In this document: piece after piece, positions 18,430 to 42,160 of the stretch
Numbering within the stretch: the stretch's first letter is position 1
Layout of the letters: each line of letters begins with the position of its first letter
From: Actinostola sp. cb2023
Taxonomy: Eukaryota > Cnidaria > Anthozoa > Actiniaria > Actinostolidae
NCBI GenBank assembly: GCA_033675265.1
Contig: JAUJYZ010000925.1
Span: forward strand, 1 to 64,000
DNA: 64,000 bases
Reading direction: 5' to 3'
Program-made: the position numbers and the translations under genes
The notes under the pieces: model-generated
The model's database searches: none
Told to the model about the DNA's origin: nothing
What the model saw: the letters and a program-made list of their open reading frames with translations, nothing else

Positions 18430-19660
18430 CCATTTTCTTGTTGCAGAGTGTAAACAATATATTCATGAAGCAGTACAACAGTATATGATTAGCACTAATT
18501 AGTACTAAATAGCACTGAGAAAACAATAGACAGCACTACTATTTAGTGCACTTCCAGCTGAATTGCAAGTTTTCAATAGAATTCGCTCTGCTTATAGCAC
18601 ATGGTGTTCAGTGGTTGACCACTATGACTATTTAGGGCCAGATAATGAGATTCATGGACTTTTATCAGCTGATTGAAACCCAGCAATAGTACTCACTCAA
18701 TATTTATACTGGATCATATCATTAATAATTCATGAGGAAAACACAATAGAAATCACAACCGTGGCAGAGCTTGTATTTCTGATACAAAATTGTCTTCATT
18801 TGCATAGACTTTGACTTTGATTTTATCAGCCAAACTTACTAGCATCTTGAAAATTATTGCCAACGAGTCAGCCGAGCGAAGACGCGAGGCTGACGAGGCG
18901 GCAGCAATATAGTGCCGAAGCGCGAACATTTCTTGTATGCAGAAAAAATCTCGAATGGACCACCAAAATGTAATGTAATGTAATGTAATGTAATGTAGAC
19001 CACAGTCTAAACCAATCAGAAAGCGCTTTTGTCTGACGTCATAAGAATCACGTGGTTGTCACAGGAAGAGCTTCGCTGATCGCTACGCTGTTGTTTACGC
19101 TGTTTCGTTGCACGAGATAAGTCCAAAAAAGTCAGATTAATGATATTTATGTTCTTTGCTTTTGTTATACTGAACTGTGTACTCTTTTCTAGATCGATTT
19201 GCTGACTATTGACAGCCTGTGTTCTAAACTGAGTAAAATTAATACTCAAAACGGTTAACCGAATCACACAGTAATGCCGATCGGGCCAACAACATTGTCA
19301 ACTTTTGTCAAGAGACACAAATCCTACTTTACTGAATTGTTTAATCGACTCAAAATACTCATTATTGCAGGCCAGTAAATAATAACAAATCCTGCTGCTA
19401 GACTGATCGAAGTGTCGATCTAACTTGGAAAGCCAGACTGTCACGCCAACGTGCTAATTATACGTCTGTGAATTAAGTACCGGTATTTGTTGTTACAATA
19501 TATTATTTCAAAGCCATCTCTCTGGAATTAGGACAAGTTTTCGCAAAATAAAATAAATCATGGAGTATAAAACTGTGTTTCAATAATCACAAAAGATCAT
19601 CGCAACAAAATCATTGTCCTCGTTGGCATTTAGCGATAGCTACGGCTAGTAGTAGAACAA
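18430..19660. other. intergenic with small repeats
   Basis: Contains a MITE fragment (18,490-18,550) and five or so tandem TAATG units at 18,970-18,997. No exon is supported. Confidence 0.4.
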
Positions 19661-20476
19661 GATTTTATACGTATGTGCAAACAATATCACGTCCCACATT
19701 CTCATTCTGCAATGAAATGTTACTTTATGGTAGTCAAGGTTCACAGTAAAGTTAAAAAAAAAAAAACATTTTATGGCTTACATGTACATACCCAATCTAA
19801 AACTGCAAGCTCTATGCGCATATTGTATGCATCGTCACCAAAGTTGATCCTTTTTGGAGCATACACAAGCATTGAGGAGTGAAGGCTCTCTATCCAGTAG
19901 GTTTCTCTGCACTACAAGAACAAACATTTTTCAGTACCTTTTGAAAATCAACAATACTCATGAATATACAGCTTGTTTCCTGAAGTGTTTGAGCCATTTT
20001 GGCTATGTTTTTCATGCGCACGCGAGCTATTGTTTAATACACTTGCACATTTTGTGTGGTCTATTGTCCTTATATGATAAAATGATGCGCAAGTGGAATA
20101 ATAAATAGATCTATACAACATCAGATGGATAATACATGTATGTCAGCAGAAAGATAATTCTAGGCTATCAATATCATCATCCGCTATACATCAATGTGAT
20201 ATTATGCATTACATACTTTCAGGTATGAATCAGCATATTTGAATACTGTCAAGTTCCTTAGTGTTTTTTCATATGTTTGAATGGCAGCTGGAGTTGTCAA
20301 AGTTTTCTTGCTCATGACATAGCCAGGCTTGGTACATCTGGACTCAGCTGAACATTTGTCATGTTTACACTGTGTGTGACAATTAAGTAATGAAAATTTG
20401 CAATATTGTTTACAATGTACATAATATATATATAGTAAATGTACAATGTTCAATAACCATTGTAATATTCTCCATA

Positions 20477-20907
20477 CAGTAAAAACCCGCATAAAAGAAC
20501 CCCTATTTTTCCAAGTCAGGCTGAAATGGTTCTTATATATTGGGTGTCTAGTGAGAAATCAGGATGCGTAGGTTCTTAACAGGTTCTTATTTTCAGGACA
20601 AAAAAAAATTGTTTCTGATACAGTATCATGGTGTATTTCCTTACAATTTGTTTTAATTAGTGAACTATTGACCCTGAAAGGTCTAATTTTCACACTAAAC
20701 ATTAACAACCCAACTGTATAATACTTATAATATTTCTGCATTTTCAGCACCGACTGTACCTGTGTGTCCTGTGCTTTAGTCATTTTTCACATAAGAACCT
20801 GCTTCATTTGTCAGGCTGAACTGGTTCTTATATATTGGGTGCTTAATTGGCTAAATTTCAGCCTGGAGGTTCTTAATCTGCAGTTTCTTATATGCGGGTT
20901 TTTACTG
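20477..20907. mobile_element. 431-bp MITE with TA target (mariner/pogo-like)
   Basis: The ends CAGTAAAAACCCGCATAA and its inverse flank the element, and TA occurs on both sides (20,475-20,476 and 20,908-20,909). CAGT termini plus TA duplication are typical of Tc1/mariner and pogo derivatives. TGGTTCTTATATATTGGGTG occurs twice internally as a direct repeat. The element lies in an intron of the transposase-like gene. Confidence 0.8.
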
Positions 20908-21100
20908 TATACCGTAAACTGCCGGTTATAAGCCCCCCACACCCCTCCCCCTATGGATATAAGCCCCCTCAAAGCTTCCTTCTTTCCTTAGTTACAATGT
21001 ATATAAAGCAGCAGTTTACAGTATGTGCATATGGGCAGATATTCATGAAACACAGATAATTCAATAACAATTAAATAATAAATATATACTAATATATAGA

Positions 21101-21230
21101 GGTTATTAGTCGGTTAAGCATCTAATACGGCTGTGTATTTTTACGAATCATTTGGTATTTTGGCTCGCCTTTAATACATGACGAGTAAAAATTCACAGCC
21201 GTATTAGATGCTTAACCGACTAATAAGTTG
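21101..21230. mobile_element. hairpin MITE, 45-bp arms
   Basis: TTATTAGTCGGTTAAGCATC at the left is mirrored by GATGCTTAACCGACTAATAA at the right, with nearly perfect arms through CACAGCCGTATTAG or its complement. No coding sequence. Confidence 0.85.
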
Positions 21231-22428
21231 TTTATTATATATTTTGTCAAAGAAACTAGCTATTTTGGTGAAAGAAAAACAACAAATTACAGTGAAATTT
21301 CTGTACGAGCGTGCGCTAGCCAAAACTGTCAATTTCTCGCACGCTGATTGGTTAATTTTCATCACACGATTCTGCATGAATGATTGGAAAGCCAGTTTGA
21401 AGTAACTACCCAAAATATGGTTCCATATTTCGCGCGTTCTTGTGCATATTTCGTGCGTTCTTTGACAAAAAAAAATATAATAATATATTATATAAGTTGG
21501 AATACTAACTTGATAGTGATTGATTACATTCAGAATTTACTCTCTAAAATTGCCTGCAGTGCCATCATTGTTCTTCATTGCAAAGTAAACATGAGTTCGT
21601 GTTGCTTTGGCTGCAAACAAAACAGGGCATTGAATGAATGAATGACATTAGTCACAAAACCTGACTATAAAGTACAGTGGTAATAGCATCAGCAATAACA
21701 GTACTGCACTAGTAGTGCATGTAGTAGCAGAAGCAGCAGAAGTGACAGTAGCAATGATAGTACTAATTAGTACTATTATTATTAGTAGTGGTATAGTAGT
21801 TGTAAATAGTTCAACCTTTATCAGAGAGCTCTGGGAACCATTTGATATTCATGTCCCGCACAAGGCCACCACAGATATTTTTCATGGCTTTGCTAATTCC
21901 CTTCGCACCTGAATTTATAAGTATAACAGTGGAAATTTTAAACATCTATTTTGAATGTTACCAGTTCATATATATACATATGTACATGTAGTTTGTACCC
22001 ACAGTGTTTACATAATAATTTTATTATCATCAATGAGAGGAATGTATCAAATGTCAGCCGATTGTCGGTGACTTGTCAGCTGACTGTTTCAACACAACAC
22101 CATCACGCCACCTGTATAGTACATTAATATTCCAGCACAGTTACTTATAAATGAGTCAAATACAATTTTTACAAACCATGCCAAGAGTCAAAGGAGTTCA
22201 CTATATGCTGTTCTTCAAACCATTTCTTTAGAGACACCACAAAGTCATGTGCAACCTCGCCAATGTTATAATCTGCAAAAAATAAATATATTTGATCATG
22301 AATATTTGGCTTTTCCTCCAATGCACACAATTTGACTGGCTTACGATGTTCTGTCTGCAGAGTAGTGATCACTTCCTTAGTCATTGGAACTTCTCGTGAT
22401 ACCGCTGGCACATGCGAGGTGCGGCTCC

Positions 22429-23508
22429 AATAAGCCAAGTCAGAGTTTAAGGATTACCGTGATTCCTGGAACCGAATCGGGATAAAATCCAACCGGAAGT
22501 TGAGTTTCGCCATACATTTACTGTAAATCTGCTAGAATCTTAGGTGAAAATATCAGTCGTTTGCGCGCCTTAGTTAGACTCTAAGAAAGATTTACTCGAC
22601 TAATGGTGAGTGTTTAAGACATAATGCGCCTTTATGAGCCAATATTTGAGTGTCAGGACAAAAAGAACACGATTTTAAATGGTCTTGTTTTGACTGAGTA
22701 ATGACTGGGATTCGCCCGCCATGACGCACCGGGACACCGAAACTTGCCTAATAGTTTTAAATTCACTTGAATATTTCCTGATAAACTATAATTTTATCTT
22801 TAGATGAGGATTTGTGCATTTTGTTGTTGTAGAGGAGAAGTTGATTAAGGAATACTGAGGATTTATTTCGGTTAATTGGTTTCCCGTCGACAAAATGTGC
22901 AGAACATATTCGTGAATCTTGACGAGGCTGCCATTTTTTCCAGTTTGTTGGGTCTTTTCTGAGACCAGTTTAATTCGCTCTCTTCTAGTGTCAATATTTG
23001 CTATCAATGGTGAAGGGCGAACGGAGGAAGACATAAAGACACGGCAATCAGTTACATTTGCTTTTATTACGGCAGTTTATGAGTTGATAAGTACTGTGAC
23101 TGCAGTGGTAAATGCACAAATTCTCATCTAAGGATAAAGTTATAGTTTATCAGGAAATATTCAAGGGAAATAAAATTATTCTAGGCAAGTTTCGGTGTCC
23201 CGGTGTGTCATGGCGGGCGAATCTCCAGTCATTACTCAGTCAAAACAAGACCATCTATAATCGTGTTCTTTTTGTCCTGACACTCAAATATTGGCTCACA
23301 AAGGCGCATTATATCTTTTAAAAACACTCACCATTAGTCGAGTAAATCTTTCTTAGAGTCTAACTAAGGCACACAAGCGACTGATATTTTCACCTAAGAT
23401 TCTAGCAGATTTACAGTAAATGTATGGCGAAACTCAACTTCCGGTTGCATTTTATCCCGATTCGGTTCCAGGAATCACGGTAATCCTTAAACTCTGACTT
23501 GGCTTATT
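22429..23508. mobile_element. 1,080-bp foldback element with THAP remnant
   Basis: The outer about 395 bp on each side are inverted copies (starting AATAAGCCAAGTCAGAG), leaving a central loop of roughly 285 bp. The loop's minus strand (about 22,985-22,860) reads PTNWKKWQPRQDSRICSAHF and VDGKP, the second half of a THAP zinc-finger domain (W, P, ICSxHF). That points to a decayed transposon whose enzyme had a THAP domain, such as Kolobok or another THAP family; no TTAA duplication is visible at the ends. It is inserted in the host transposase-like gene. Confidence 0.75.
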
Positions 23509-24835
23509 AGAAAAGCCAATCACCTTTTTATTCCTAATTATATAAACAAACAATTAATAACATGATTGAAAAAGTTTTTATATTTTAGTTGATGTTATTG
23601 CCATATTTAATGCACAGAATCCTTACGTATGGGAAATAACACACACAGTAGTGTGCCCAACAGATCGACTTGAATCATGTCTGGCATCTGTAATTACACA
23701 CTGTTGGGAAAGTGAAAAGATGATCACTTTATTTGATGCATTTTCCAAGAAGTCAAAAAGACATCAATACACATAATAAAGATAAATAAAATAGTTACAA
23801 GTACTTACATCACCATTCCTCTGATATGCTTCAGTTTCTTTGACTTCACTCCTGGCTGTTTCCATGGAAATAGCACAGACCTCTGATACAACCATTGCAT
23901 AACCAAGTTTTTGTATGACTATAAGAATCAAACATATTGTAAAAACACACTAATATATTTGATGTACACATAGTAAAATCCTGGCCCCAGTTTCACTAGC
24001 CACCACCACCTTTTAGTGCAACCTGGGTCTGGTAAAATAAAGCTTTTCCAGATTACTAGTGATAGACAATATAATATTGCTAACCCACTCCCCTCCCCCT
24101 ACCCATATATTTTTATAAGCCCACCAAAAACTGGCTTGTAATGGGATATTTCACAGTAACTACATGTATCTGTTCATTTCTTTAGACTGTTTATCATTGC
24201 TGTCTATTTTGGAGTCAATCATGTGGTATTAGAGCAGCAGTATATGTATGTTGTTACGTAAACAATAAGCAATCATCTATCAAAAGTCAATCAGTATATA
24301 CCTGAATCAAATGTTTTTTCACCAACTGCACCAATACATGCAGCATGCAGATGCACATGCAGATGTGTACTGTGTTTCTGTCAAGCCACTCGACAGAAAA
24401 CCATGTACGAGTCTAAGAAAAAGAAAGAGGGAAGGAAGGAAAGAGATGGAAAGAAGGGAGGAAGGAAAGAAATTTAAATCAGTTTCTTCAATTATATATT
24501 CAATAGCAAATTTGTCTTCTTACCTCATGTTGACATAGTATTTTACAATGCTGCCTCCAGCCATCATTGGAGAGGTTAGCCACTTCAATTTATCCAGACA
24601 GAGGCATTCCACAGTCATTGTGGCACAATGCCCCTGCCTGGCAAATGTGGTAGAGGATGCAATAAATGGTTGTTGGCAGAATGTGCATTTGCCTTGGTTT
24701 TTGACAAACTCACTAGGGATTGTAAAGATCCCTCTGTACAAAGGATAATTTGATCATTTTTGGATGCTGGGGTTGTTACTTGCTCCGTCCTCGGCACATA
24801 ACGCTGACTTGATTTGTCTTGTGTCTTTGCAGCTG

Positions 24836-24842
24836 GTTTGTC
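24836..24842. repeat. 7-bp target duplication, left copy
   Basis: GTTTGTC directly precedes the left terminus (CACAGGTAG) of the 10,980-bp element and is repeated at 35,823-35,829. Confidence 0.9.
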
Positions 24843-25432
24843 CACAGGTAGCCCAAGCGCAGCATTTGTATAAGAGAATGTATGGGCATTATTCAATGGT
24901 GGATTCTCAGCGTAAATATTGAATAAATGTTACTGTAACTTACTATGTGTCTTGAAGTAGTTCCTGCCAATGTCTGGAGCGAGTTTCAGAATTTTTCGGA
25001 ATTTTTTCCCTCCCCTTACACAGAAGATGACAAGGTTGGAATCGAAGCCCGAAAATCGCCTTCAAACGGCTCTAATTCAGGTCGATTTTCTCGAAGAAAT
25101 TCGAATCCCATTGCAATCTGCCTTCCCAGGGCTGTCAACGGATAACCTAGCAATGTAGCTGTGCTTATTGAATCGAGCCAGTTGCTTTTCCTGAGCCATG
25201 AGCTCCCTTGAGGCCAAGAAAATCCACTCCAAAATCGCCATTTTGATGCGTGGCGAGAACAAGTGGGTACAGAAAGCCGTTGAACTCACGGTCGAGATCT
25301 GGGAGCGAGTACAAAAGTTCAACCCCACCGGGAGGGACTACTATGAAAACTTCCAAGGCTTTTGTTTATCCTCGGCCAATCACAGGTCGCTTTGGCCACA
25401 TGGGCTTTGAAACGGCAGAGTGGAAAACCCGC
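24843..25432 (+). repeat. left terminal inverted repeat (590 bp)
   Basis: Matches 35,233-35,822 in inverse with only about three substitutions that I could find (for example near 24,906, 25,034 and 25,111). It contains the helicase start codon (25,343) and most of helicase exon 1. Its first 80 bp fuse in frame with the interrupted host gene, giving that gene a premature stop inside the element. Confidence 0.9.
25198..25410 (+). CDS. upstream ORF in TIR, overlaps helicase start
   Basis: An ATG (25,198) opens a 70-codon frame reading AKKIHSKIAILMRGENKW and VQKAVELTVEIWERVQKF, with helix-forming composition. It overlaps the helicase ATG at 25,343 in another frame. The identical ORF exists in the right repeat (35,467-35,255, minus). 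It may be a small protein, an upstream ORF that tunes translation, or the older 5' part of the helicase frame-shifted in the C-run near 25,324. I cannot choose between these. Confidence 0.35.
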   Translation: MSSLEAKKIHSKIAILMRGENKWVQKAVELTVEIWERVQKFNPTGRDYYENFQGFCLSSANHRSLWPHGL

Positions 25433-28400
25433 GAACGACCTTCTGTCAAAACAAAAGCGAGAGAAACAGTCGAAGCGCGATGGAAGATCGTTCGAAAGTA
25501 CCTTAATATGTCGAGGTAAGTCTTAAATATATAGATAGATACATGCATACTTTATTTTGCAAATAATATAGCCATTCAAAATGATTCAAGGCGCGAGAAA
25601 TAGAACTGATATTGACAAACTACTAGTACTGTATACTAAAGCTAGCAACTTCACACGGCTGATAGGTTGACAGTCGAGCAACAAGAGATCTTGCGATCTG
25701 TGGAATCAGGCCACAATATTTTCATCACCGGTCAGGCAGGGACTGGAAAGTCCTTTCTTGTGAAGGAAATTTACAAATGCTTTCAAAGATCCGGAAAAAA
25801 AGTCAAGATAGTTTGCTCTAGTGGTATAGCTGGAACGGTGTATGCAGATCTTCGCACCTCAGTTCCCACAGTACATTCCTTCTACGGCCTGCAAACAGCA
25901 GATTTGCCGTGGCGATTACTCGTAAGTCGATGCGCACAAGACAGTATTCTAAAGGAAAGAGTGATGAGTCTAGACTGCCTTATCTGGGACGAAGTTTCAA
26001 TGTCAAGCAGACGAATACTCGAAATTGTAAACCAAGTCCACATTGAATTGAGTGCAGCTCAAGAAACGGTGCGACCATTCAATGGAATTCAAGTTATTTT
26101 GGTCGGGGAATTCCTCCAACTTCGACCAGTCCCAAACTTTTTGGATCGAGGGGAATTCATGTTCCAATCGCCGGTCTTTCATCGCGCTATTACTCATAGG
26201 TACGAACTTAAAACTGTAATGCGCCAAGATGAAAATGAAGGGATATTCATCAAATGTTTGAGGGAGGTGCGAGTAGGACAGTGCACTGATGAAACCCAGG
26301 GATTCATAAAAGGACTCGAGAAAAAACTACCTGATCATGAAGACTTGGAAGCTACCCACATATTTTTTAAGAAAATATCTGTACAGATGTTCAACATAAA
26401 TCGACTTGCTCTTTTAACCGGAGTAGAGGATCGATTCGAATCAATTGATCAGGGTGATATCAAAAGCATTTCCTGTCCAGCTGAGCGTCTCCTTGTTTTA
26501 AAACCTGGATGTAAGGTAATGCTAGTTTGGAATAGGAGTGATAGATTGAGGAATGGAAGCGAGGGAAAGTATGTTGGCAAAGTGAATAATGAAAACCAGA
26601 TTGAAGTGGAGTTTGAAGGTACAGGAAAGGTTGCATTGAAACGACAAGTATGGCAGAAGAAAGGAAAGCATGGAGAGGTAGTTGGCACCCGCACACAGTT
26701 TCCATTAATACTGATGTACGCAATAACATGTCACAAGTCCCAAGGCCAAACATTGCCTGCAGCAGTTGTTCACTGCACCAAAGAATTTGTCTCTGGGTTG
26801 ATTTATGTATCTTTTACCCGTGTAAGAAAATCATCCCAACTTCAAGTACTCAACTTCAACCGAAAACAACTGGTCCCACCTGTAAAGGAATGTGTACATG
26901 TTTGTGACAACCATTCACAATTTGAAGAAAACCTCAAGTGTTGCCGCAACATATATTTACCTAAAGATGAGTATTCTGTATTGGAAATGGAATACGAAGA
27001 CCTGGAGAATGATGAAGATGAAGGCGCTGCTGTTGAAGTAAGTAAGGTGACGAAAAGGGTGATCAAATCCTACTTTGAAAGGGGGGATCCGCAAGAATTC
27101 TTCATAGATTTGGGGACTGTATATGCTGTGCTGTCAGATGAAAGGTCCAGCAATGCCTTTATGAGAACCCCTACAGATAATTTTTCTGTTCAAGGCCTAC
27201 TTGAAAGCATGGTAATAGAGGAGTCCCTAAGTGAATATGCCAACAGAAAGAACAGTGTGCTCGAAGAGCTGTTAACAGTTAGAAATGAAGATTTGGAAGT
27301 AGTCGGGAAGATCATGTGGAGCAGAGCCTGTCAGATTGTCCTTGAAGACAGTATATTGAATGCTGGTGATGTTCCCCAAATTTCATCCAAACAGTGGTCA
27401 TTAAACACCAAAGAATTATTCTTGCTGATAACCAGATGTACAGCTTTCATGAGGGATTTAAAGTTATTATTTGGTGTTGATGAGTTATCACAAGCCCAAA
27501 GTGCAATTGGAACAGAGCTGATGACAGAGGTGTATAGCACAGTAGTTGGTGAAGTTGCTGAGAAAGTGAGGACCGTCGAGTCAGATTCTCCTGTTGTGAT
27601 TGATGTTAGAGAAATGGCAAGTGAAGGACTATCCAAGATTAGATATGTTGGGGCATGGGCAGTTGCCAAAGTTTTCCACAAGGAACTCAAGTATGTCAGA
27701 CTGAACATGGCATCACATTCCCAGAAGACCCTAGCATCTGTAAAAAAGAGCTTCGACATGACATATTTGCTAGAGGAGCATGTGATAGCTAATATTGCAC
27801 AACTACAGGAATCAACAAAATATCCCCCGACTTTGAACTTGACTGAAGAAAGGCAATATCGATCAAGAGGGTTAACCCACATTGAAGACAGTGCGTATGA
27901 ATTTTTTGTAGAACTGGAAGTACTACGCGTAGACAACCTTAATGACAGTAAGTTAAAGAAGAAGAAGGAAACTCTAATTGATGACGCACTGAAGATTGCT
28001 TTTGAAAGTGAAGTTCTTCTGAACAAATGGCAGTCTTGCTTTCCTCAAGAAGATGGTCATGTAATCAAGGTGAGTAAAATTAAATGTAAATCTCACATAT
28101 ATATGTCTAAATTAATTTTAATCTGTAAAATTTTTAATTAATGCGGCATGAATAATTTTATCAAAAATACACTTCAATTTGTACATGCTTTTAATATAAA
28201 ATTTGTGGTTATTTTCCAGGAGGATATTGTCAACACCCTATTGAAACTGGTTGTAAAGAAGTACATGAAAGCAGGTGCAGGGCAGTACTTAAGGGACTTC
28301 CGTCTTGCACACAGGTATTAATTATTGAATGACAAAAATACAATAATGCATGAGTCAATATACCCCGGGACAGGTTGGAGATTTGATCAGAACCTCGTTT

Positions 28401-29227
28401 ATATATACATCTATACAGATGCTTTATATAATATAAATTGTATAGTCAATTTAATCCTTAACCCTGGGTACCAGAGGGCCAGGGTATTATTACCCTTTAG
28501 TATAATTATATTAAAAAATAAAAAATAAATAAAATTCAGTTGGTGAAAAAAAAGTGCAATGTCTTTTGTTTTCTATTGTTTTATTGGTGCTATTTAGCAC
28601 GAACTAGTTTGTACTGTTTTAGTGTTTGCACTCTACAACATACCGGTATTTAAATATAAATGGGGTTTAATTTTTTTTAAAGTTTGTTATATTTGGGGTT
28701 CCTGTGGTTTCAATTCGGTGGGGGAATAAGTCCCATAGCAGGAAAATATAATTTACTGATTGCAGTGGCAAATTTGTAGGGAATGGAACAACAGGTGTAT
28801 TTTTCATTTCAAATTATTTGACAGGATCAAGAAAAGTGCAGAACACAGGAAGAAGGTACTAGAGCGGAAGACAGCCCTTGAAGTTACCAAGGCATCTGTG
28901 TCATATGCTGATATTGTTGGAGACACTACTGCAGGTAAAGTCAATAGTCATCATCGACTAGTTGCTTTCGTTGCCAAATTTGGAGAAGCAGCTTTTGTGA
29001 AGGTCTACTTGAAGTGCCAATTGCTTACGATCTGCAAAGCATATGGCATCACTTCAAGTCAAGGCAGGGCAACTAAGGCAGATCTTGGAAAACAACTAAT
29101 GCCCATATTGAAGAGCTCTCAATCTATGGTTCACTCTTACTACCTTGGCAACCTCCAGTCTCAAGTCAACATTGACAGTGAAAACCAAAGAGTTTCATTA
29201 ACTATAACTAGATCTCGATTACATTAG
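25343..29227 (+). CDS. PIF1-type SF1B DNA helicase, 1,024 aa
   Basis: Four exons (25,343-25,515; 25,666-28,069; 28,220-28,314; 28,825-29,227) join in phase to 1,025 codons with no internal stop. PIF1-family helicases unwind DNA 5' to 3' using ATP. Visible motifs: Walker A GQAGTGKS (about residues 80-87), Walker B IWDEVSM (about 163), motif III VGEFLQLRPV where most relatives have GDF (Glu replaces Asp), the CHKSQGQTL motif and YVSFTRVRKSSQL. After about residue 460 comes an acidic linker and a roughly 550-residue C-terminal region I do not recognise; its last exon (ICKAYGITSSQGRATKADL) resembles a SAP-like or DNA-binding helix pair seen in invertebrate predicted proteins. Exon 1 lies mostly in the left inverted repeat. 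Convergent with the transposase, it is probably an accessory protein for element mobility or replication; that role is inference. Confidence 0.85.
28549..28633. mobile_element. MITE fragment in helicase intron
   Basis: TTTTAGTGTTTGCACTCTA and TGCTATTTAGCAC match the element at 1,111-1,252; the left end is degraded. It lies in helicase intron 3. Confidence 0.65.
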
Positions 29228-29598
29228 TCCCTTAATTTGACAATACCAGTATTTAATAATATTATTATTGTAGAATAACAGAGCATGAACACTAAAAGCC
29301 ATGAAATAATATAAATTGTTGAATTTGCCTAATAGTTTTATATATACATTTAAGCTTAACTTCAATAATATAACTCAACCAGCTCAGAACAGCTAGCCGA
29401 ATTACTATCAATACATACAGTCTGGATCGACATGTACATGTATATTTCCACGTACTATAGCATGCAACTGCATGGTTGATATTAATTAATAAGTTTAAGT
29501 TCATAACTTTCAGTAAACTGCATGCACTGAAGAGAAATCAGGTATATAACATATAAGGATTTGGGGTCACGTGACCATGAAGATTCATATTACAGTAT
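29228..29598. other. spacer between convergent genes
   Basis: This 371-bp AT-rich gap separates the stop codons of the helicase and the transposase, and must hold both 3' ends. I see no strong hairpin; AATAAT and similar A-rich motifs are common but no single polyadenylation signal stands out. Confidence 0.5.
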
Positions 29599-32500
29599 TT
29601 ATTTCCTTTGATTGGCTCCCTTTAAACTCAATGCTCCAGCATTGCTCTTTCGACTGATGGTTGTTTGGCCATAGCGAATTGTGTTTTGAGTGGCTTCCTG
29701 CAATCTCCAGGTTGGGTTATTGTTCTGCCCGTTACAAGCACGAATTTGGCAAAAGTGGTTCTCCACAACATCTTGATTGATTATACCAGGTTTCACGATG
29801 GCACTTTGATGGAACATTGTTTTAATAGATACGATTGCTTGAAAGCCATGCACCATTGACTGTAAATCAAAGTACAACTTTGGTGAAATAAATTTCTTTG
29901 CATCTCCTTCTGTACTGCACTTCCAGTCATCAATAAACTTTAGGAATTGCCTAAGTTCTTTCAGCCTAGAGTCTGTTACACTTGATAAGGTGTACTTGTC
30001 ATTGAACAGCTGTACCATTTTAGATGAATGGTTTAAAAGTGCTATTGTTGCATCGAGACTGTTTTCATTCTGACCAGGTTTATTTCTGAGATGGTCTTTA
30101 TAGGCCTACAGAATAATGATATTCAAAACAGCTTAGTACATTTTAATGTTATATTCATAATTGGTGATATTTGAATTCTAGACCAATATTTGCATTTGCA
30201 TTTATTATATTTATGTGTACATTTACTTATGTATATTTATACATATTTAAATATAATCACTATAATATATACTATCCCATTGTCTTATATATTATATAAC
30301 CAAACATAAATTTATTTTATTATATGCCATTGAACAGAAACATGTGAATTCACCTGTGAATGTTTTGAAATTCACATGTTTTTCACAATGTTTCATAGAA
30401 ATTCAAACTTAATAAGTGTGAAATGTGCACTTTCACATGAAAACTGGCATATGTGAAGAAAAAAATGTGGAGTTATTTTCACATTTTTTCACACACATGT
30501 CGATCATGCAGATCGAGCTCTACATTAATTGAATTCAGCTTTTGATATATCCATTCAGATCAATTACAATCCACACCATAAATAGCAATTAAAGCTTATA
30601 TATACATGGCATTGACAAGGAACAGTTTTGTGGCTCAATGTGATAGAGGCCATAATAGGGGAGAGAGGGATTTTTATATTTTCTGAAAAAAGTAGGACAT
30701 TATTTAAATGCTCATAATGCAGTACATGACATATGGTCTGGTATATTAATAAGAACACTGCATAGACTATGCATTACAATATTGCATGTACAATAATTTT
30801 GTACCTTCATCAAACTCAGCATCTTTTTGTCTAATACATCTTCTACTAAGTGATTTCTCATTTTTGAAGCAGGTGTGAGATCAAAATGTTCTGCTGTAAG
30901 TTTCTCATTGAATGACATAGAGAATGATCCTTGGTCATAATTGAAGGCATTTCTGAAATGTTCCCAAAGTATATGGTTTGTCCCAATGGTTAGACATCTG
31001 GTAGAACTTCCATCAATAACACTTTTTAGGATATTGTTTCGTAATTTCTTGAAATTATGCTGCAGAACAAACAAATGAAATTAATTGATAATAATAAAGA
31101 ACTGTATGTTTTAGTAAATATATATTTACAGCAACGCATTCAAATTACTGTTCAGTTTTGTATATAATTATAATCATAATAATTACATGGACATACATGC
31201 ATGCACTCATTACATGCACAAAATGTATAATTGTGTATATATATATACACTCAAACCTCTATTAAGCGGCCCTGAGCTAGTTGTTAAGCGGTCACCTCTA
31301 TGTAAGCAGTCAGTAACAGTAATGGCTATTTCCCGAGGGTGACCGTTTAACAGAGGTAATTGACTGTATATAATATATATTTGTATAAATGCATGTTTCT
31401 GCAAACATCAGTGCATGCATGTATATATATACCTAACCATAAAAATTATGCAACTTTTGATATATATATATGTCTTTTGTTTCTCTATTGTTTTTTCTTC
31501 GAGAACATAGGATATATATATCTTAAAGTTGCAGAGTTTATTTGGTTAGGTGTATATAGTCAGTTGTATTGTTGCACCTGACGAGAGAGGACCGGTTGGC
31601 CCTCTCGAAACAGAACTGTAGTGCCAATGACATTGTATTAAATTTTCCTTCGCATTATTTAATATTATATATAATGATTGATTTACCTTTGGATCCATAA
31701 GAAACACCATGGGGCAGCTATAATTATATGGATTGGGGCAGATAAATCTATTATTGATGGCCTCATTCTCATCCGTGAAATGTATCTTTATGAACTGACG
31801 ATTGACCTCGGCACCATCCAATATGCAATAATATATCCTGTGGAAAATTATACAGATCAAGCTTTTGATAAATTTATAAATAAGTTCATGTTGTACATGG
31901 TTTCAAGTTCAGTTTGGAATTAATTTGCACGAGTGTGCATGTTTTTCAAATGGTTTTAAAATATTTGAGTTATTTGAGCTCTTCAGAAAAACATATGAGT
32001 GAAAAACAAATTCCAAATTGGACTATAAAACCATGTGGTTACTCATTAATAATATGCATGAAAAATCACTTTTTCATGTTGTGTTATTGCTTAATAGCAC
32101 GTTTCTCAGCCAATTAAGCAGAATCAAGGAAATTGTTCATATATATTATAATAGTTTCATTTATTCTTATATTTGTTAACATTATTAAATAGTTAAACCT
32201 TGTACTATAATTGTATTTTCTTATTAAATATTTATGATCACTTACGTGAATCCAGTTTCAAGCATTTTTTTGACCCCATTCCAAAATATGAACTGAAGGC
32301 CACTGGCAGTGCAGCTGCTAGAGGGGAATTGTGCAATGGGAAATCTAAAACCACTGTCTCCCAGAAATATAAATTGCAAAACATGGGAGGCCAATTTAGG
32401 CTCTTCTGATGCACCTGCAAATTATCAACATGATTGACTGAATATGCTGTATGTTTTAGTTTTATATACAACTGTAATCAACAAAAGATATATGGCTAAT

Positions 32501-35160
32501 TCCTCAGGGGGGGTACTCAGGGGTATCAGTGACAGGGAGGTGCGAAGAGCTTTTTTGGATTTGAAATTCGCGGCTTTGGACTTTTTTAGGGTTATCAATT
32601 TTCTGGGACTTTTTTTGATATAAATATTTTGGCAAGGACTTTTTGGAGGGTTGATACAAATGATATCCTACTGTTCTCGATTTGTTGAGGGGAAAAATTG
32701 GATGTTTTTGCGTAATGTTTTTTGGGGTTATTAAAAAGTTTGGCCTCATTCGCACCCCACCTCACTGATACCCTGAGTACACCCCCTGGGGCTAATTCGC
32801 ATTAATCTTATCATAAATATGTACCTGATAAGGTCTGCATGTCATCATGGATTTTTCCTAAATCAACAAATCCGACAAGTCTGTGCTTTCCATCTTTAAC
32901 TACCATTTCAACATCTTCCTATAAAAATATACAATAAATTATTATTTAAAAATGATTATTGCATGTGGAACTATTTTTGTGGGTTTTTTTTCAAAGCATT
33001 ATTAACTTAATTATCCCTGTATTTTCATTTCGTCAAGTACAAACCCCCCCCAAAAATCTTGCTCTCTTAGGTGGTTTTTCTTTGCCTCTTCTAAGCACCA
33101 CTTCCACATTGCACTGTTCCATCCAGGTTTTTGTTCCACCTTGTTCTTCAAGTGTCTGTAATCATATAAAACCGTGAATATACATTTGGAAAACTTGCTA
33201 GAATCAGCACTAATACATATAATCAGGGAGGTGTGTGTGTGTGTGTGTGGGGGGGGGGGGGGTGAGGGGGGTGTCGGTGTAGTGGCAAGGGGTCAGGTGT
33301 GTTTTTTAGATGACAGGCCACAATCAAGGTTCATTGGATTAATAAATTGATTGATGCTAGAAAATATAGATAACTCAAATAGGCTCCAACAAAGACTGGC
33401 TGTACATAATAATAATAATATACATGTACTGTATATGTAAAATAAAAAATAAAAAATAAATGAAGTCCAATGTAAGGGGTTGGTCAAAAATGAAATTTAA
33501 TACTTTATATGAACCTATAATATAATTCAACCCAGTATAATCATACATTACCGAATAGTCCGGTTACTTGGCAGACAAATTACTTTTCGAAGTGGATCCA
33601 ACACATGGGGGTTTTTGCAGTACAGCTCAACACATAGTTTCATTATCCTGTGAATTAAATTGAAAAACACCATAATCATTATAAACCTAAATACTCATGA
33701 ACTACAATGGCCAGTGATAAATTTAAATAATAAATGGCTCTAGATGTGTATATCTCAATATGAAAGAAAATGTTTATATTTTTACATCAGAATATTACCG
33801 AATAATGGGGCGGAACCTGAGGAGTTGGGCAAGGGGGTTCAATGATGGGTAGGTACTATTACTAGTAAAGGGGATCCAGGGGAATTATTATTTGAAATTG
33901 AAGCTATTTTTCATTTGAACTTACTTTGGATGCCATCTGTATTGCTTTTTATTAGTAGTCCTTAAAATCTTCTCCTGTTCATTCCAAAACATTAACATGT
34001 CCTCTGGTACATCTTCAATTTTAACATTATTCATTATTTTTTCCAAGTCTTTATGATCATCCTCTTCCATCTCCAGCATTTCTTTTTGAATTTTCTCTCT
34101 CGCCCATTTTTCAGATAGATGTCCTTTTTTTTCATTGGCTAACTTTCCTAATATTTCTTCTCTCGACAAGTACCTATTATTTGTTTTTGGGGCAAGGCCA
34201 GATTTCTTTCTTTCGTTGAGCCTTTTTCTTAACTTAGTTAGATTAGCTTTTGAGGTAGTGCATTTTGGACAACGTACACCTGCAGAATTGGTCAAAACTT
34301 GACAATGTGATGAAAAACCTCGCTCTTCGGATGATGAACCATCAGTTACAATGAAATGCCTTTGTATAGGGTCGCCGTCCAAGTCATCATCATCATTTAT
34401 TTCAAATCCTTGACACACATAGCTCCTGTTTACAAATTTCATCAGGTTTCTAGCTTTGTCTACAATCCCATAACAGTTAAACTGACTTGAGATTACTTCA
34501 ACTTGGTCAGATGGTATAGCTCGTTGATGATAAAGTATTTTGACCTCAATTTCCTGATTTTCAGATTTTTTTAGAAAGTTAATCTCGCTAACAACCCTCT
34601 GATTGTCATAGCGAACATTTTCAAAATGTAGTAAGCTTATCGAATGTTCGTTATTCTTGAAGGCGTTCCATGTACAATCGTCGTCTATTGCTGTGATCCG
34701 TTGATAGTTTTCGTTTAAAACTTTCCATTCTTCGTTGAAGTAAAGTGGACCAACCTTTGGTGATAATAGTTTTCTTTTCACGTCTGGATATCCTCTAACG
34801 CGATTCTTGTCTCTTCCTACTCTTGCACACTTCGTTCTCCCCTCGAAAACATCAAGAAAGGCCTTAGTTAAAATACACTGAGACACGGCCGTATCGCCAA
34901 TATTCTCTTTATCTTCTTTTATGTGAAATAAAGCATCATCCACCAAAGTGAAACTTCCTTTGCTGCTTTCGTAATTCAAAATGATCCTAAAATTTAAAAT
35001 AATTAAAGATCGTATAAGCTTACTACGACGGTTCAAGCCTCGTCAATCGGTAACTTCATTACATTTGTAAATATGCCTTTCTACTGACTTACCAAGCTCT
35101 GATCGAGGCGTAAACAGTAGTAGATATTGGTTTTCTTTTCTTTTTCGGAGGCTCAGACAT
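29599..35160 (-). CDS. P-superfamily (THAP9/P-like) transposase, 846 aa
   Basis: Nine exons on the minus strand: 35,160-35,093; 34,986-33,925; 33,647-33,552; 33,155-33,017; 32,918-32,825; 32,414-32,246; 31,837-31,687; 31,059-30,805; 30,105-29,599. They total 847 codons with consistent phases and no stop. Exon 1 encodes an SV40-type nuclear signal PPKKKRK. P-family landmarks in order: WHPK..IMKLCVELYCKNP..LPSNRTIR; VLDEMKIQ (candidate first catalytic Asp); LVGFVDLG; KLASHVLQFIF; YCILDGAEVNRQFIKI; HNFKKLRNN; FNEKLTAEHF; SKMRNHLVEDVLDKKML; VVENHFCQIRACNGQNNNPT (candidate Glu). There is a CPKC pair in exon 2 but no classical N-terminal THAP finger. One oddity: the donor of exon 4 reads CAG|GGATAA instead of GT. 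If real, this blocks normal splicing. Confidence 0.85.
31248..31374. mobile_element. MITE in transposase intron 7
   Basis: Ends CTCAAACCTCTATTAAGCGG and (inverse) GTCAATTACCTCTGTTAAAC are imperfect inverted repeats flanked by TATA. A relative is truncated at 2,880-2,935. Confidence 0.6.
31428..31557. mobile_element. MITE in transposase intron 7
   Basis: TATACCTAACCATAAAAATT at the left is mirrored by TTTATTTGGTTAGGTGTATA at the right, with inner GCAACTTT/AAAGTTGC. About 130 bp, no coding. Confidence 0.7.
32503..32789. mobile_element. 287-bp MITE, 9-bp target duplication
   Basis: Inverted ends CTCAGGGGGGGTACTCAGG / GTACTCAGGGTATCAGTG and a perfect 9-bp flank GGCTAATTC (32,494-32,502 and 32,790-32,798). 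A 9-bp duplication is usual for Mutator-like elements among others. It sits in transposase intron 5, so it is younger than the P-type element. Confidence 0.85.
33231..33262. repeat. (GT)n followed by G13 tract
   Basis: About nine GT units run into a long G run, within transposase intron 3. Confidence 0.85.
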
Positions 35161-35232
35161 AATACCGTGGAATAATAATAATAATAAACTTTATTATTAT
35201 TATTATATGACTGACTATTCAACCGTTGCTTT

Positions 35233-35822
35233 GCGGGTTTTCCACTCTGCCGTTTCAAAGCCCATGTGGCCAAAGCGACCTGTGATTGGCCGAGGATAAA
35301 CAAAAGCCTTGGAAGTTTTCATAGTAGTCCCTCCCGGTGGGGTTGAACTTTTGTACTCGCTCCCAGATCTCGACCGTGAGTTCAACGGCTTTCTGTACCC
35401 ACTTGTTCTCGCCACGCATCAAAATGGCGATTTTGGAGTGGATTTTCTTGGCCTCAAGGGAGCTCATGGCTCAGGAAAAGCAACTGGCTCGATTCAATAA
35501 GCACAGCTACATTGCTAGGTTATCCGTTGACAGCCCTGGGAAGGCAGATTGCGATGGGATTCGAATTTCTTCGAGAAAATCGACCTGAATTAGAGCCGTT
35601 TGAAGGCGATTTTCGGGCTTCGATTCCAACTTTGTCATCTTCTGTGTAAGGGGAGGGAAAAAATTCCGAAAAATTCTGAAACTCGCTCCAGACATTGGCA
35701 GGAACTACTTCAAGACACATAGTAAGTTACAGTAACATTTATTCAATATTTACGCTGAAAATCCACCATTGAATAATGCCCATACATTCTCTTATACAAA
35801 TGCTGCGCTTGGGCTACCTGTG
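35233..35822 (-). repeat. right terminal inverted repeat (590 bp)
   Basis: Inverse copy of 24,843-25,432. It holds a truncated copy of the helicase N-terminal frame (ending in a stop just inside the repeat) and lies 73 bp upstream of the transposase ATG, so it is the natural place for the transposase promoter. Confidence 0.9.
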
Positions 35823-35829
35823 GTTTGTC
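35823..35829. repeat. 7-bp target duplication, right copy
   Basis: GTTTGTC immediately after the right terminus CTACCTGTG. Confidence 0.9.
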
Positions 35830-36217
35830 TTGACGAGGAGTAGAGGCAGAAAGTGGTGGAGTGCACAGAACATAATGAGAAAGGGGAATGAAAGAACCAG
35901 GTGTGGGCGGGCAATTCAGGTCTCTGCTGCGAAGGGGCGAAATTCGGAATGATGTAGGTGATGTAGGCGAATCAGTGGATGATATGGAGGATATGGAGTT
36001 GCTTGATTTCAAGTAGTCGTACTCAAAGGCCAGAAGAAGTGTTTCAATCAAGTCAGCATTCTGTGTCGAGGAGGATTTCTTGGACAACCCCAGCTTTTTC
36101 TTGCAAGTTTGCAATCGTTCTTTTATGATCTGCAAGCGACTCTTCACCGAGGGGAAGTTCGATGTTCAAAGATAATTGAAGTCGCTTTTTCTTCGTACAT
36201 GTATGTTGCTGAGCCAT
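35823..36217 (-). pseudogene. 5' part of interrupted transposase-like gene
   Basis: ATG at 36,217 starts MAQQHTCTKKKRLQLSLNIE (basic, possible nuclear signal). After a one-base excess in the G-run at 36,151-36,154 the frame continues as a Lys/Leu-rich possible coiled coil (KSRLQIIKERLQTCKKKLG), a Ser/Thr/Pro-rich linker, and STPRQDKP, where the 11-kb element enters. Beyond the element, at 24,842 downward, the frame resumes as AAKTQDKSSQRYVPRTEQ. With one copy of the 7-bp duplication removed the two halves are in frame. As it stands, translation would run about 80 bp into the element and stop. Confidence 0.7.
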
Positions 36218-36900: not shown

Positions 36901-37689
36901 AAATTTACTGGCAAGGGGGGTATCTCTGATTTTCTTTTAATTCCGCACAGTGTTAGCCTATTATATATCTAAATTCGCTGTGTAGTTAGTTTCGAAAAAT
37001 ATTTTTTAATTTTCGAGAAATTCGTCATAAACGAAGTCCTCTTGAAATCGACTCGAAACACGTCAGAATTAGAGACACATTTAACGAGCTCGGAAATAAG
37101 GAAAATAACAGTACTGCTCTTAAAAACCGTACGACCTTCTTTCTCTCTCTCTAAATACTAGATTGCGTGATTTTGAGGTGAATTGCGTTATGTTTCATGA
37201 GCGAATTATTTTTTTTGGCGAGGCATACATTTTAACTCGCCGAAAGTATCTATTCAACAAAGCTAATTTTCACCAGGCGATAAACCTTCAAATCTTTCTG
37301 GCCTGCGCTTGTGAACTCTATGGATGATCATCTTTTCATATATGTAAACATTTCCTTGGGCAAATAATGTAGCGATTAGCTATAGCTGCCGAAAGTTGGT
37401 GAAAATGTGTTATTTACTTGACCTTTACAGGTCAATATCTCATAGCAAGTGTAGTATGAAAATACCTATCTGATCTTCAATCACTAGTTTTGGCGAATAA
37501 AATACACCAAAATCAAATCACTATGAAGCTCTTACCTCATTGATACGGATATGGACTTGAGAAACGTCAGTTTTATTGTAATCCCATGGTCTTCCTTTTC
37601 GACTGTCTATTTATAACTTTCGATGAATGTTGAAGACGACGTCGAGGCAACCGGGTTTAACGTCAAAGTTTGACCCAATTTTTAGCGTA

Positions 37690-38340
37690 CTTTCCTCTTG
37701 GTTACATTCTTACTTGTAACATTCATTGTATCCTCTGATATGATGCTTGATAACAATCGATGGAATACGAATATTCTGGTTATGATTTGCAGTTGAGGAC
37801 TGCACTGAATATTTTCAACCGCTGCTTGTCGACTCACGTGACCACATATGATACTCAGGGGGTATAGGAAGGGAGCTGGATAGTAGCTGACAAGTGAAAA
37901 TAATGTATACGAAGCCTTCAATTCATTTCTTCGAGGTCAATTACTTTCATTAGTCGTATCTAATCACAGTTGATCTTTTTCATAAAACGTTTTAAATTTT
38001 CTTGCCCGTGAAAAAAAATACATGGGCTTCCTGTGTTCCGGCGCTGCAGACTTATTTTCGTACCTAATATTTATTTTATAAAGGTATTCATAAATGTATA
38101 AAGCTTACAAATACAAATTACACTATCACATCAGAAGGGATGACTATGATTTGCAAATAAATGCATTTCATTGTAATAGGATTAAAACGCGCACCAAGTG
38201 TCGAGTATCACTCCTGGCATACTATTTTTAAACAGATAGAACTCGAACTCAAGCCTTCTATCGGAGCCGATAGAAGGCGAGAGTGAGCCTTCTACATTTG
38301 TATCTGTTTTAGAATACCACAACTGACTATCTATAAAGCA
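37690..38340. other. unique filler inside the 5-kb element
   Basis: AT-rich, no supportable exon. A short inverted repeat AGCCTTCTATCGGAGCCGAT / CGATAGAAGG occurs near 38,252-38,300. Confidence 0.4.
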
Positions 38341-38345
38341 TATTT

Positions 38346-40206
38346 CCGCTTACGGGAGGTGTCCGCTTACGGGAGGTGTCCGCTTACGGGATGTGTCCGC
38401 TTACGGGATGTGTCCGCTTACGGGAGGTGTCCGCTTACGGGAGGTGTCCGCTTACGGGAGGTGTCCGCTTACGGGAGGTGTCCATTAACATTAATATTTT
38501 AATAATGGCCATTCTTATATAGCGCATTTCACATTCGTCCCAATGCGCTTTTACGGGAGGTGTCCGCTTACGGGAGGTGCCTGCTTACGGGATGTGTCCG
38601 CTTACGGGATGTGTCCGCTTACGGGAGGTGCCTGCTTACGGGAGGTGCCTGCTTACGGGAGGTGTCCGCTTACGGGAGGTGCCTGCTTACGGGAGGTGTC
38701 CGCTTACGGGATGTGTCCGCTTACGGGAGGTGCCTGCTTACGGGAGGTGTCCGCTTACGGGAGGTGCCTGCTTACGGGAGGTGTCCGCTTACGGGAGGTG
38801 TCCGCTTACGGCAGGTGTCCGCTTACGGGAGGTGTCCGCTTACGGGAGGTGTCCGCTTACGGGAGGTGTCCGCTTACGGGAGGTGTCCGCTTACGGGAGG
38901 TGCCTGCTTACGGGAGGTGTCCGCTTACGGGAGGTGCCTGCTTACGGGAGGTGCCTGCTTACGGGAGGTGTCCGCTTACGGGAGGTGCCTGCTTACGGGA
39001 GGTATCCGCTTACGGGAGGTGGCCGCTTACGGGAGGTGTCCGCTTACGGGAGGTGTCCGCTTACGGGAGGTGCCTGCTTACGGGAGGTGTCCGCTTACGG
39101 GAGGTGGCCGCTTACGGGAGGTGTCCGCTTACGGGAGGTGTCCGCTTACGGGAGGTGTCCGCTTTCGGGATGTGCCTGCTTACGGGAGGTGTCCGCTTAC
39201 GGGAAGTGCCTGCTTACGGGAGGTGCCTGCTTACGGGAGGTGTCCGCTTACGGGAGGTGCCTGCTTACGGGAGGTATCCGCTTACGGGAGGTGGCCGCTT
39301 ACGGGAGGTGCCTGCTTACGGGAGGTGTCCGCTTACGGGAGGTGCCTGCTTACGGGAGGTGCCTGCTTACGGGAGGTGTCCGCTTACGGGAGGTGCCTGC
39401 TTACGGGAGGTATCCGCTTACGGGAGGTGGCCGCTTACGGGAGGTGTCCGCTTACGGGAGGTGTCCGCTTACGGGAGGTGCCTGCTTACGGGAGGTGTCC
39501 GCTTACGGGAGGTGGCCGCTTACGGGAGGTGTCCGCTTACGGGAGGTGTCCGCTTACGGGAGGTGTCCGCTTTCGGGATGTGCCTGCTTACGGGAGGTGT
39601 CCGCTTACGGGAAGTGCCTGCTTACGGGAGGTGCCTGCTTACGGGAGGTGTCCGCTTACGGGAGGTGCCTGCTTACGGGAGGTATCCGCTTACGGGAGGT
39701 GGCCGCTTACGGGAGGTGCCTGCTTACGGGAGGTGTCCGCTTACGGGAGGTGTCCGCTTACGGGAGGTGTCCGCTTACGGGAGGTGTCCATTAACATTAA
39801 TATTTTAATAATGGCCATTCTTATATAGCGCATTTCACATTCGTCCCAATGCGCTTTTACGGGATGTGGCCGCTTACGGGAGGTGTCCGCTTACGGAATG
39901 TGTCCGCTTACGGGAGGTGTACGCTTACGGGAGGTGTCCGCTTGAGGGATGTGTCCGCTTACGGGAGGTGTACGCATACGAGAGGTGTCCATTTACGGGA
40001 GGTGTCCGCTTACGGGAGTGCCTGCTTACGGGAGGTGTCCGCTTACGGGAGGTGTCCGCTAACGGGAGGTGTCCGCTTACGGGAGGTATCCGCTTACGGG
40101 AGGTGTCCGCTTACGGGAGGTGTCCGCTTACGGGAGGTGTCCGCTTACGGGAGGTGTCCGCTTACGGGAGGTGTCCGCTTACGGGAGGTGTCCGCTTACG
40201 GGAGGT
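38346..40206. repeat. 17-bp minisatellite with 408-bp higher-order repeat
   Basis: About a hundred copies of CTTACGGGAGGTGTCCG. Variants (TGCCTG, TGGCCG, TATCCG, CTTTCGGGATGTGC) repeat in the same order every 408 bp (24 units), for example 39,001 and 39,409. A 72-bp spacer beginning CATTAACATTAATATTTTAA recurs 1,306 bp apart (38,483 and 39,789). Because 17 is not a multiple of 3, all three plus-strand frames stay open for about 400 codons (Leu-Arg-Glu-Val repeats); these are not proteins. The array ends GGAGGTTCAACTGTA, the inverse of TACAGTTGAACCTCC, a transposon-end-like sequence also seen at 4,313, 15,402 and 43,758. Confidence 0.95.
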
Positions 40207-40353
40207 TCAACTGTATGATTGTAAAATAAACTTACCACCAAAGTTAGTTTGCTCATGTGATCACTTATTGACTGATCTGACATTTGTTTTGGACTCTCCT
40301 CTATAAATGTCATCCCGTAAACAACAACTGAAGCTGCATGTCATTGAACGCAC

Positions 40354-40778
40354 CTGAACCTACTGGTACAAACAAACCAGTACGATGTAATATGATCCAA
40401 GATTCTTCCTTTCCCAGTCCTCGATCACCCTTTGGCCAGGTGCTTGCCTTGCTTTTGTCATGACCAGAAATGGTTTGGGGAACTCTACACCTTGTGCTGG
40501 ATCCTCGCGTCCATCCTATTCCAAGTGAAGCTCGATGATACGGACATATTGTCATGGAATTTAGATGAGCTGGCTCGGTGAATAAAAATGTCCGACAAAG
40601 AATGAGATCGATTTCATTTTGTGGACCTGAAAAGGTCAGAGTAGACTTATGCCTGGAAATATCCTTCGTGGAAAGTAAAGGTATTATCTGAGTTTGTCGC
40701 TTTTTGTCTTTTGGATCGAAACTACACTGACGGCCACCAACAAGAGATTTGAACGAACAGCAAGCTTCCAATAATGAA
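40354..40778 (-). CDS. Cys/His-rich exon, unknown module
   Basis: One long internal exon on the minus strand with acceptor AATCAG and donor CAG|GTGCGT. It reads [53 protein letters not shown] and [16 protein letters not shown]. The CC, LC, CP.HR and RC pattern could bind zinc. Similar stretches occur in many uncharacterised invertebrate proteins; function unknown. A decayed paralogue lies at 12,480-12,795. It is the only coding-like sequence inside the 5-kb inverted-repeat element; partner exons were not found. Confidence 0.5.
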
Positions 40779-42005
40779 CTGATTTTAAATGTTTTTATTG
40801 TAAGGTGACCAAAACACCCCAGGTAGGTGGGGACGGGAGTTATGTATCCAGTTTTTGCAGCTCCATTTTTTCAGAAGTAAAAAAGAAATTGTTTTAAATT
40901 ATATAGTCTTCGACTTTTACTCTTTTTGCTAGGTATCTATCTTACTTTTCTTCAATTTAAATATATTAATACTGATATCAATCTGATAAATTTCCCTAAC
41001 TTAAAATTTCAAGGAAGCCTTCTCGCTCTGTCAATCATCCCGGCTATTGCAGTAATTTGCATAAGTTACGTTTTTGTTTGTCTAGTTCTAATCAATGAAG
41101 AATTGCGACAGTACAGCTACAATTCAAGAACAAAGTAACGTAAAAACAAATGGGCCTATTGAACCTTTACGCATTTACCGTATCAGAAGAGGAATGGGAA
41201 GGTACGCTAAAAATACGGTCAAACTTTTGACATTTTGAACATTCATCGAAAGTTATAAATAGACAGTCGAAAAGGAAGACCATGGGATTACAATAAAACT
41301 GACGTTTCTCAAGTCCATATCCGTATCATTGAGGTAAGAGCTTCATAGTGATTTGATTTTGGTGTATTTTATTCGCCAAAACTAGTGATTGAAGATCAGA
41401 TAGGTATTTTCATACTACACTTGCTATGAGATATTGACCTGTAAAGGTCAAGTAAATAACACATTTTCACCAACTTTCGGCAGCTATAGCTAATCGCTAC
41501 ATTATTTGCCCAAGGAAATGTTTACATATATGAAAAGATGATCATCCATAGAGTTCACAAGCGCAGGCCAGAAAGATTTGAAGGTTTATCGCCTGGTGAA
41601 AATTAGCTTTGTTGAATAGATACTTTCGGCGAGTTAAAATGTATGCCTCGCCAAAAAAAATAATTCGCTCATGAAACATAACGCAATTCACCTCAAAATC
41701 ACGCAATCTAGTATTTAGACAGTGAGAAAGAAGGTCGTACGGTTTTTAAGAGCAGTACTGTTATTTTCCTTATTTCCGAGCTCGTTAAATGTGTCTCTAA
41801 TTCTGACGTGTTTCGAGTCGATTTCAAGAGGACTTCGTTTATGACGAATTTCTCGAAAATTAAAAAATATTTTTCGAAACTAACTACACAGCGAATTTAG
41901 ATATATAATAGGCTAACACTGTGCGGAATTAAAAGAAAATCGGAGATACCCCCCTTGCCAGTAAATTTTAGTTTTATCTCATATTTGTAAATATGATCTC
42001 TTAAG

Positions 42006-42160
42006 GTCTAAGCTGTCCCGACTTGGATACAGTTTAAAATGATTTTTTGCGTGATCTCCGAGGTAAAATTAGAGAGAAATTCCCAGTTCGTACTCTCAAA
42101 AAGTGGTCGCGGTCTCCTACGAGAGGTGGACTCCTACGAGAGGTTACAAATATAGTGATT
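42006..42160. repeat. tail of a fourth repeat-family copy
   Basis: GGTCTAAGCTGTCCCGACTT through TACAAATATAGTGATTT duplicates the tail at 43,908-44,192 in the same orientation, so two family members lie head to tail and only the tail of the first remains. Confidence 0.75.

Follow-up and report, generated by a model that had tools for sequence, protein, structure and literature searches.

A P-type transposon carrying a convergent PIF1-type helicase gene in the sea anemone Actinostola

The stretch of DNA analysed here (the window) comprises the first 64,000 nucleotides of contig JAUJYZ010000925.1 of the sea anemone Actinostola sp. cb2023, and it contains a P-type transposon of 10,980 bp that spans positions 24843–35822 and carries two genes, one for a transposase and one for a PIF1-type helicase (Table 1). 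The initial annotation had described a unit of this size with inverted ends and a perfect 7-bp target duplication, all of which is borne out, save that the terminal inverted repeats (TIRs) measure 593 bp, with four mismatches between the arms, rather than 590 bp. The duplicated heptamer, GTTTGTC, is the longest match between the flanks when nine registers are compared; in a chance control, 280 of 200,000 random position pairs gave a 7-bp match in any of nine registers. Each TIR contains a single copy of GTTACNGTAAC, which is found nowhere else in the 64 kb. No repeated motifs of 10–12 bp were found within the TIR and no classical RFX X-box was found in the window, and a scan of IMG/VR with the TIR pattern gave no match.

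The helicase gene, on the plus strand, and the transposase gene, on the minus strand, are convergent, their 3′ ends lying 371 nt apart. Since the start codons are situated just inside the two ends of the element, 72 nt (helicase) and 69 nt (transposase) inward from the inner ends of the TIRs, and the 3′ ends adjoin one another, both genes point inward, and they are probably driven by promoters within the repeated ends. For the helicase we propose a model of 969 amino acids in four exons separated by GT–AG introns, which replaces the 1,024 residues of the initial annotation; a 964-residue relative from Exaiptasia aligns to residues 1–965 of this model, with 52% identity over 975 columns. The motor domain is matched by Pfam family PF05970 (E = 4.1e-29), and human PIF1 is a clear relative (E = 9.9e-48, 31% identity, template modelling (TM) score ~0.7 of target), as is Candida PIF1 by its fold (TM score ~0.8). 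These matches assign the protein to the PIF1 family, as originally proposed, and its motifs fit a predicted ATP-driven 5′–3′ unwinding activity. The C-terminal region, of ~550 residues, is helical and has no Pfam match; in a fold search of BFVD the top matches to the helicase were viral PIF1/RecD-type helicases only, and the C-terminal region found no separate match. No close relative of the helicase was found in the contigs of IMG/VR and GTDB; scans with a helicase alignment yielded, respectively, at least 16 and at least 6 distant loci with best segments at 23–38% and 27–44%; these counts are lower bounds, and records near the genome of the window may be missing.

The transposase model comprises 846 amino acids in nine exons. 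Its membership of the P superfamily, also correctly recognized in the initial annotation, is supported by matches to two Pfam families, both of P type, by a profile match to the Drosophila P transposase (E = 7.5e-17) and by fold comparison: the core has the RNase H fold of P type, with D-D-E at the corresponding places. Pfam family PF21788, for the GTP-binding insertion, is unmatched; the profile alignment covers residues 334–554 of 6p5a, the insertion region included. The length of the protein and the convergent arrangement stand as first described, but the completeness of the transposase gene in the window is doubtful, because the intron that follows exon 4, and hence the first catalytic-position Asp, has GG at its donor site; the remaining seven of the eight introns have a GT donor, and the exon-4 donor is GT in both of the other long copies discussed below.

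At the N-terminus of the transposase, no THAP domain was matched in the Pfam scan. A profile of this region compared with the PDB found RFX1 (E = 3.5e-6) and RFX5 (E = 1.3e-5), values that became 1.2e-5 and 0.0094, respectively, on removal of the Exaiptasia row, and the Pfam RFX family PF02257 was matched by one of the five alignment rows. Judged from its sequence, the N-terminus (35160–34770, minus strand) appears to resemble an RFX winged helix and not THAP, apparently through a swap of the recognition domain. No relatives of the transposase were found in the IMG/VR and GTDB contigs.

When the Actinostola genome (424 Mb in 1594 contigs) was searched with the left end of the element, at least 72 dispersed matches were found. 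Three long copies have both ends, and all three carry both helicase and transposase: the window element itself, C644:48024–58961, which matches it at 98.7% along its entire length, and C383:16044–28995, which matches at 98.5 and 97.8% and has ~2 kb extra within a transposase intron. A further 33 short loci (L035–L067) were fetched, six of which lack one end; the other 27 are two-ended, with sizes of ~360 to 1,090 bp, and many are approximately tip-to-tip palindromes of the TIRs. An exact 7-bp duplication flanks 22 of these 27 (the exceptions being L046, L053, L061, L066 and L067) and a longer one flanks none, and the 7-bp duplication is a property of the family. Taken with that of the window, these 23 duplications favour GTNNNAC, a bias that is a palindromic target preference.

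The dispersed end matches and the duplications at the short copies rule out the notion that the unit is no transposon and simply an inverted segmental duplication that encloses two host genes, to which, with the exact duplication in the window as well, we attach a negligible probability. What could be said in its favour is that the right TIR, at its outer end, extends an open frame from the flank on that side (35743–36147, minus strand), which enters the TIR in frame for ~25 residues before reaching a stop; the transposon may supply a terminal exon to a gene at its landing site. If the flanks are joined with a single copy of the duplication, a minus-strand open frame crosses the junction, as would be expected had the element inserted into an older open stretch; the support for insertion is weak, because the right-flank part of this frame has no Pfam match.

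More divergent relatives were sought with the transposase, which gave 64 matches in the genome, 32 of them reaching residue 800 or beyond. Transposase 3′ ends were examined at 18 of these 32 (the remaining 14 matches had no locus), with ~1.5 kb of downstream sequence for all 18 places and 4 to 6 kb for eight of the 15 that lie outside the window element's family; L094, L096 and L097, which are duplicates with at most 300 bases downstream, and places that lack the final transposase exon were left out of the count. At 14 of the 18 places, a convergent match to the helicase family lies downstream of the transposase, either within the first 1.5 kb (the three long copies, C1159, C555, C1046, C767, C465, C799, C209 and C444) or at ~2 to 4.4 kb (C861, C948 and C1323), the matches at C799 and C444 being pieces of 51 and 72 residues, respectively. 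Among these relatives, C1159:67702–79641 is a second complete element, with 607-bp inverted repeats (99%), the exact target duplication GAATAAC and both genes. Its helicase is 53% identical to that of the window, and its end resembles the window end only in the outermost 16 bp. The palindrome GTTACTGTAAC, present in both TIRs of the window element, is a speculative candidate for a site bound by the RFX-like domain; it is unmatched in the end of C1159, whose TIR also lacks the looser pattern GTNAC.

The initial annotation had named copies without the helicase, or a helicase with ends of its own, as evidence that would count against a single element. Neither check refutes a single element: the helicase is present in each of the three long copies and at 14 of the 18 places overall, with none seen at the other four, and no inverted repeat of at least 16 bp brackets the helicase. 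On the places examined, it is very improbable that the helicase was once a mobile unit in its own right, for example derived from a Helitron, which inserted into P-type elements several times. Helitrons are known to have PIF1-type helicases, and Helraiser is a weak relative of the protein described here (E = 1.6e-9), but human PIF1 is much nearer, neither of the two proteins has a Rep domain in Pfam, and the convergent position is identical at the 14 places, with the start codons of the window genes similarly close to the inner ends of the TIRs.

Across 13 elements, namely 12 of the Actinostola genome and a pair from Oculina that is linked by gene number only, helicase identity correlates with transposase identity (r = 0.72, a value not reached in any of 5000 label permutations; overlap was sufficient in 73 of the 78 element pairs). 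When C444 and C1046 are omitted, both having a close relative among the elements compared, r = 0.44 (37/5000), and omission of C444, C1046 and C799, with at least 100 helicase residues compared, gives r = 0.58 (2/5000). Outside Actinostola, there are two pairs of a transposase and a helicase on contigs of equal length: P0138 and P0013 of Exaiptasia, at 107,181 bp, and P0003 (G025450) and P0020 (G025442) of Oculina, at 33,308,145 bp, whose gene numbers differ by 8; from these lengths and gene numbers, the pairs are probably linked in these species too. In the trees of both genes, the Exaiptasia pair is closer to the window proteins and the Oculina pair stands apart, the deeper fork of the transposase tree being only tentative. 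We conclude that this is a P-type transposon in which transposase and helicase form a standing gene pair, and we put the probability of this, for the element and the pair only, at about 0.88. Since the pair recurs in relatives within this genome and probably also among other corals and anemones, the helicase appears to be a functional component of the element, not a passenger picked up by chance.

Several observations weigh against this conclusion. No helicase was found downstream of the transposase at C482 (within 4.4 kb), C483 (5 kb), C342 (4.3 kb) and C663 (1.5 kb only), places that comprise L081/L104, L085/L103, L092/L105 and L086; these may be helicase-less members or losses, and relatives need not all carry the gene. 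Similarly, 12 of the 14 listed cnidarian transposases have no listed helicase on a contig of equal length, the helicases being the best 120 of 562, and this evidence is weak because both the helicase list and the annotation are partial. All three long copies show coding or splice damage: the coding exons of the C644 and C383 copies contain indels in each of the two genes, and at least one of these indels falls in a run of G and may be an assembly error. The expectation that several copies would have both genes together with target duplications holds for the genes, in the three long copies and C1159, but no matching duplication is present at C644 or C383. Furthermore, C644 and the window have one flank in common (16029–24842; L031, L032 and L069), 8.8 kb at 99.8%, whereas the other flank differs, a pattern that suggests either ectopic recombination between copies or an assembly join. 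With regard to the recognition domain, the window transposase used alone matched no RFX chain, the profile being required.

The four places without a helicase in the examined stretch, and the disruption of the helicase frame in two of the three long copies, could also be explained if the helicase were a passenger, captured once by an ancestor of the lineage and having no role in transposition; Drosophila P moves with its own encoded transposase (PMC7776569). We consider this improbable, given that the helicase is found in divergent elements and is convergent at 14 of 14 places, that its divergence co-varies with that of the transposase, and that it is kept end to end in comparison with Exaiptasia, which is expected under long selection.

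We take the P superfamily to be defined by the transposase core and not by THAP; its target duplications are of 7–8 bp, being 7 bp in some members. The Actinostola element has the D-D-E RNase H-fold core, and TIRs with a 7-bp duplication are seen in the window, at 22 of the 27 short copies and at C1159, and we class it as a new lineage of the superfamily and not as a canonical P element. P elements normally encode a transposase alone. Drosophila P and zebrafish Pdre2 (THAP9) have a THAP domain, an 8-bp duplication and ends of 31 or 13 bp, whereas the Actinostola element has the 7-bp duplication, 593-bp ends, an RFX-like N-terminus with no THAP match, and the helicase as a second gene. A PIF1-family helicase is common to this element and Helitrons, but in the latter Rep is fused to the helicase and there is no target duplication, whereas here there are inverted ends and a target duplication, Pfam matches no Rep domain in either protein, and the helicase is nearer to cellular PIF1 than to Helraiser. 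With cellular PIF1 it shares the SF1B motor, to which it adds the long C-terminal region, and it differs further in being multi-copy and transposon-linked. Galileo, a Drosophila member of the P superfamily, has a 7-bp target duplication and is not known to have a helicase. Its ends are long and foldback-like (0.5–1.2 kb), as in the Actinostola element, and it uses THAP sites ~70 bp from the end (PMC3688188), in contrast to the absence of a THAP match here. AcademH and KolobokH are likewise DNA transposons that encode a helicase (PMC9587614, PMC10045372 and PMC10799480), but their transposases are of Academ or Kolobok type, whereas the Actinostola element has a P-type transposase and, in a convergent gene of its own, a PIF1-type helicase. 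In the open full-text literature, which takes in few subscription papers and no Repbase Reports, we found no P-type transposase that is accompanied by a PIF1 gene or has an RFX-like region where THAP would be expected, nor any report of RFX combined with a transposase, in keeping with the suggestion of the initial annotation that a P-type element with a helicase was undescribed.

P elements are textbook transposons reliant on host repair of the excision gap: the transposase excises the element, and the gap at the donor site is repaired from a template. In Actinostola, the transposase, bound to the ends via the RFX-like domain instead of THAP, would excise and insert the element in the manner of the Drosophila P transposase, whereupon the helicase would work on the gapped donor site by promoting processive synthesis in a displacement loop (D-loop). 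This synthesis would have to cross the ~11 kb of the element, including 0.6-kb ends that are prone to fold back, for which an element of such length and structure would profit greatly from PIF1-type help, and the outcome would be that full-length copies, rather than internally deleted ones, are restored from the sister-chromatid template. A precedent is provided by P{wa}, a 14-kb P element: efficient repair of the gap left by its excision requires PIF1 in Drosophila that lack POL32, and repair tracts become shorter when HELQ or BLM is lost (PMC8951532). The initial annotation had suggested help with repair or copying of the gapped donor site, or loading onto ends, as possible functions. Full copying of the excision gap would be the likeliest role for the helicase, to which we would give somewhat less than even odds. 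More tentatively still, an old hexacoral P-type lineage, with RFX in place of THAP, may have taken over the gap-repair PIF1 of its host, with the result that a cut-and-paste element multiplies as if it were replicative.

Alternatively, the helicase could act at another step, by melting or remodelling the long ends, by unfolding foldback ends in replication, or by replicating an excised form. The length of the ends would be in accord with this, as would the many near-palindromic short copies, which could fold back when single-stranded; we nevertheless regard it as rather unlikely, since the ends of Galileo are of comparable length and no helicase is known there. With regard to gap copying, the presence of a PIF1 gene within the P-type element itself would allow a direct test of whether a repair helicase raises copy number and prevents internal deletion. 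If the domain replacement is true, then P-type transposases can exchange their recognition domain, apparently THAP for RFX.

Table 1. Coordinates of the ends, target duplication and exons of the P-type element in the window
Feature	Position	Strand	Remarks
Target duplication, left copy	24836–24842		GTTTGTC, exact 7 bp
Left TIR	24843–25435	+	593 bp, starts CACAGGTAGCCC; helicase side; 4 mismatches to right arm
Palindrome GTTACTGTAAC	24929–24939 and 35726–35736		86 bp from each element end; only in the TIRs within the window
Helicase exon 1	25508–25515	+	Start codon
Helicase exon 2	25666–28069	+	Walker A GQAGTGKS and DE box IWDE; encodes the PIF1 motor and the larger part of the C-terminal helical region
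Helicase exon 3	28220–28314	+	Gene model
Helicase exon 4	28825–29227	+	Gene model; ends in stop
Transposase exon 9	29599–30105	-	Catalytic-position Glu 793
Transposase exon 8	30805–31059	-	Gene model
Transposase exon 7	31687–31837	-	Catalytic-position Asp 550
Transposase exon 6	32246–32414	-	Gene model
Transposase exon 5	32825–32918	-	Gene model
Transposase exon 4	33017–33155	-	Catalytic-position Asp 450; followed by GG donor in window copy
Transposase exon 3	33552–33647	-	Gene model
Transposase exon 2	33925–34986	-	Its start finishes the RFX-like winged-helix region (~residues 22–95)
Transposase exon 1	35093–35160	-	Start codon; motif PKKKRK
Right TIR	35230–35822	-	593 bp; transposase side; 4 mismatches to left arm
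Target duplication, right copy	35823–35829		GTTTGTC, exact 7 bp

The remainder of the window holds further repeats and mobile-element genes. To the right of the P-type element, an element-like unit (36901–41968) has inverted repeats of 734 bp (99%) around a long array of 17-bp tandem repeats; kinship of this inverted pair with the P-type element was considered and rejected, there being only short matches at chance level. In the left flank lies a foldback-like unit (22426–23511) with inverted arms at 91–97%. A dispersed repeat is present in three copies (3157–4461, 14264–15548 and 42001–44154), parts of which are up to 97–99% alike, and towards the end of the window a Harbinger-like nuclease (DDE_Tnp_4) adjoins a convergent Myb/SANT gene (61119–62471 and 62753–63805).

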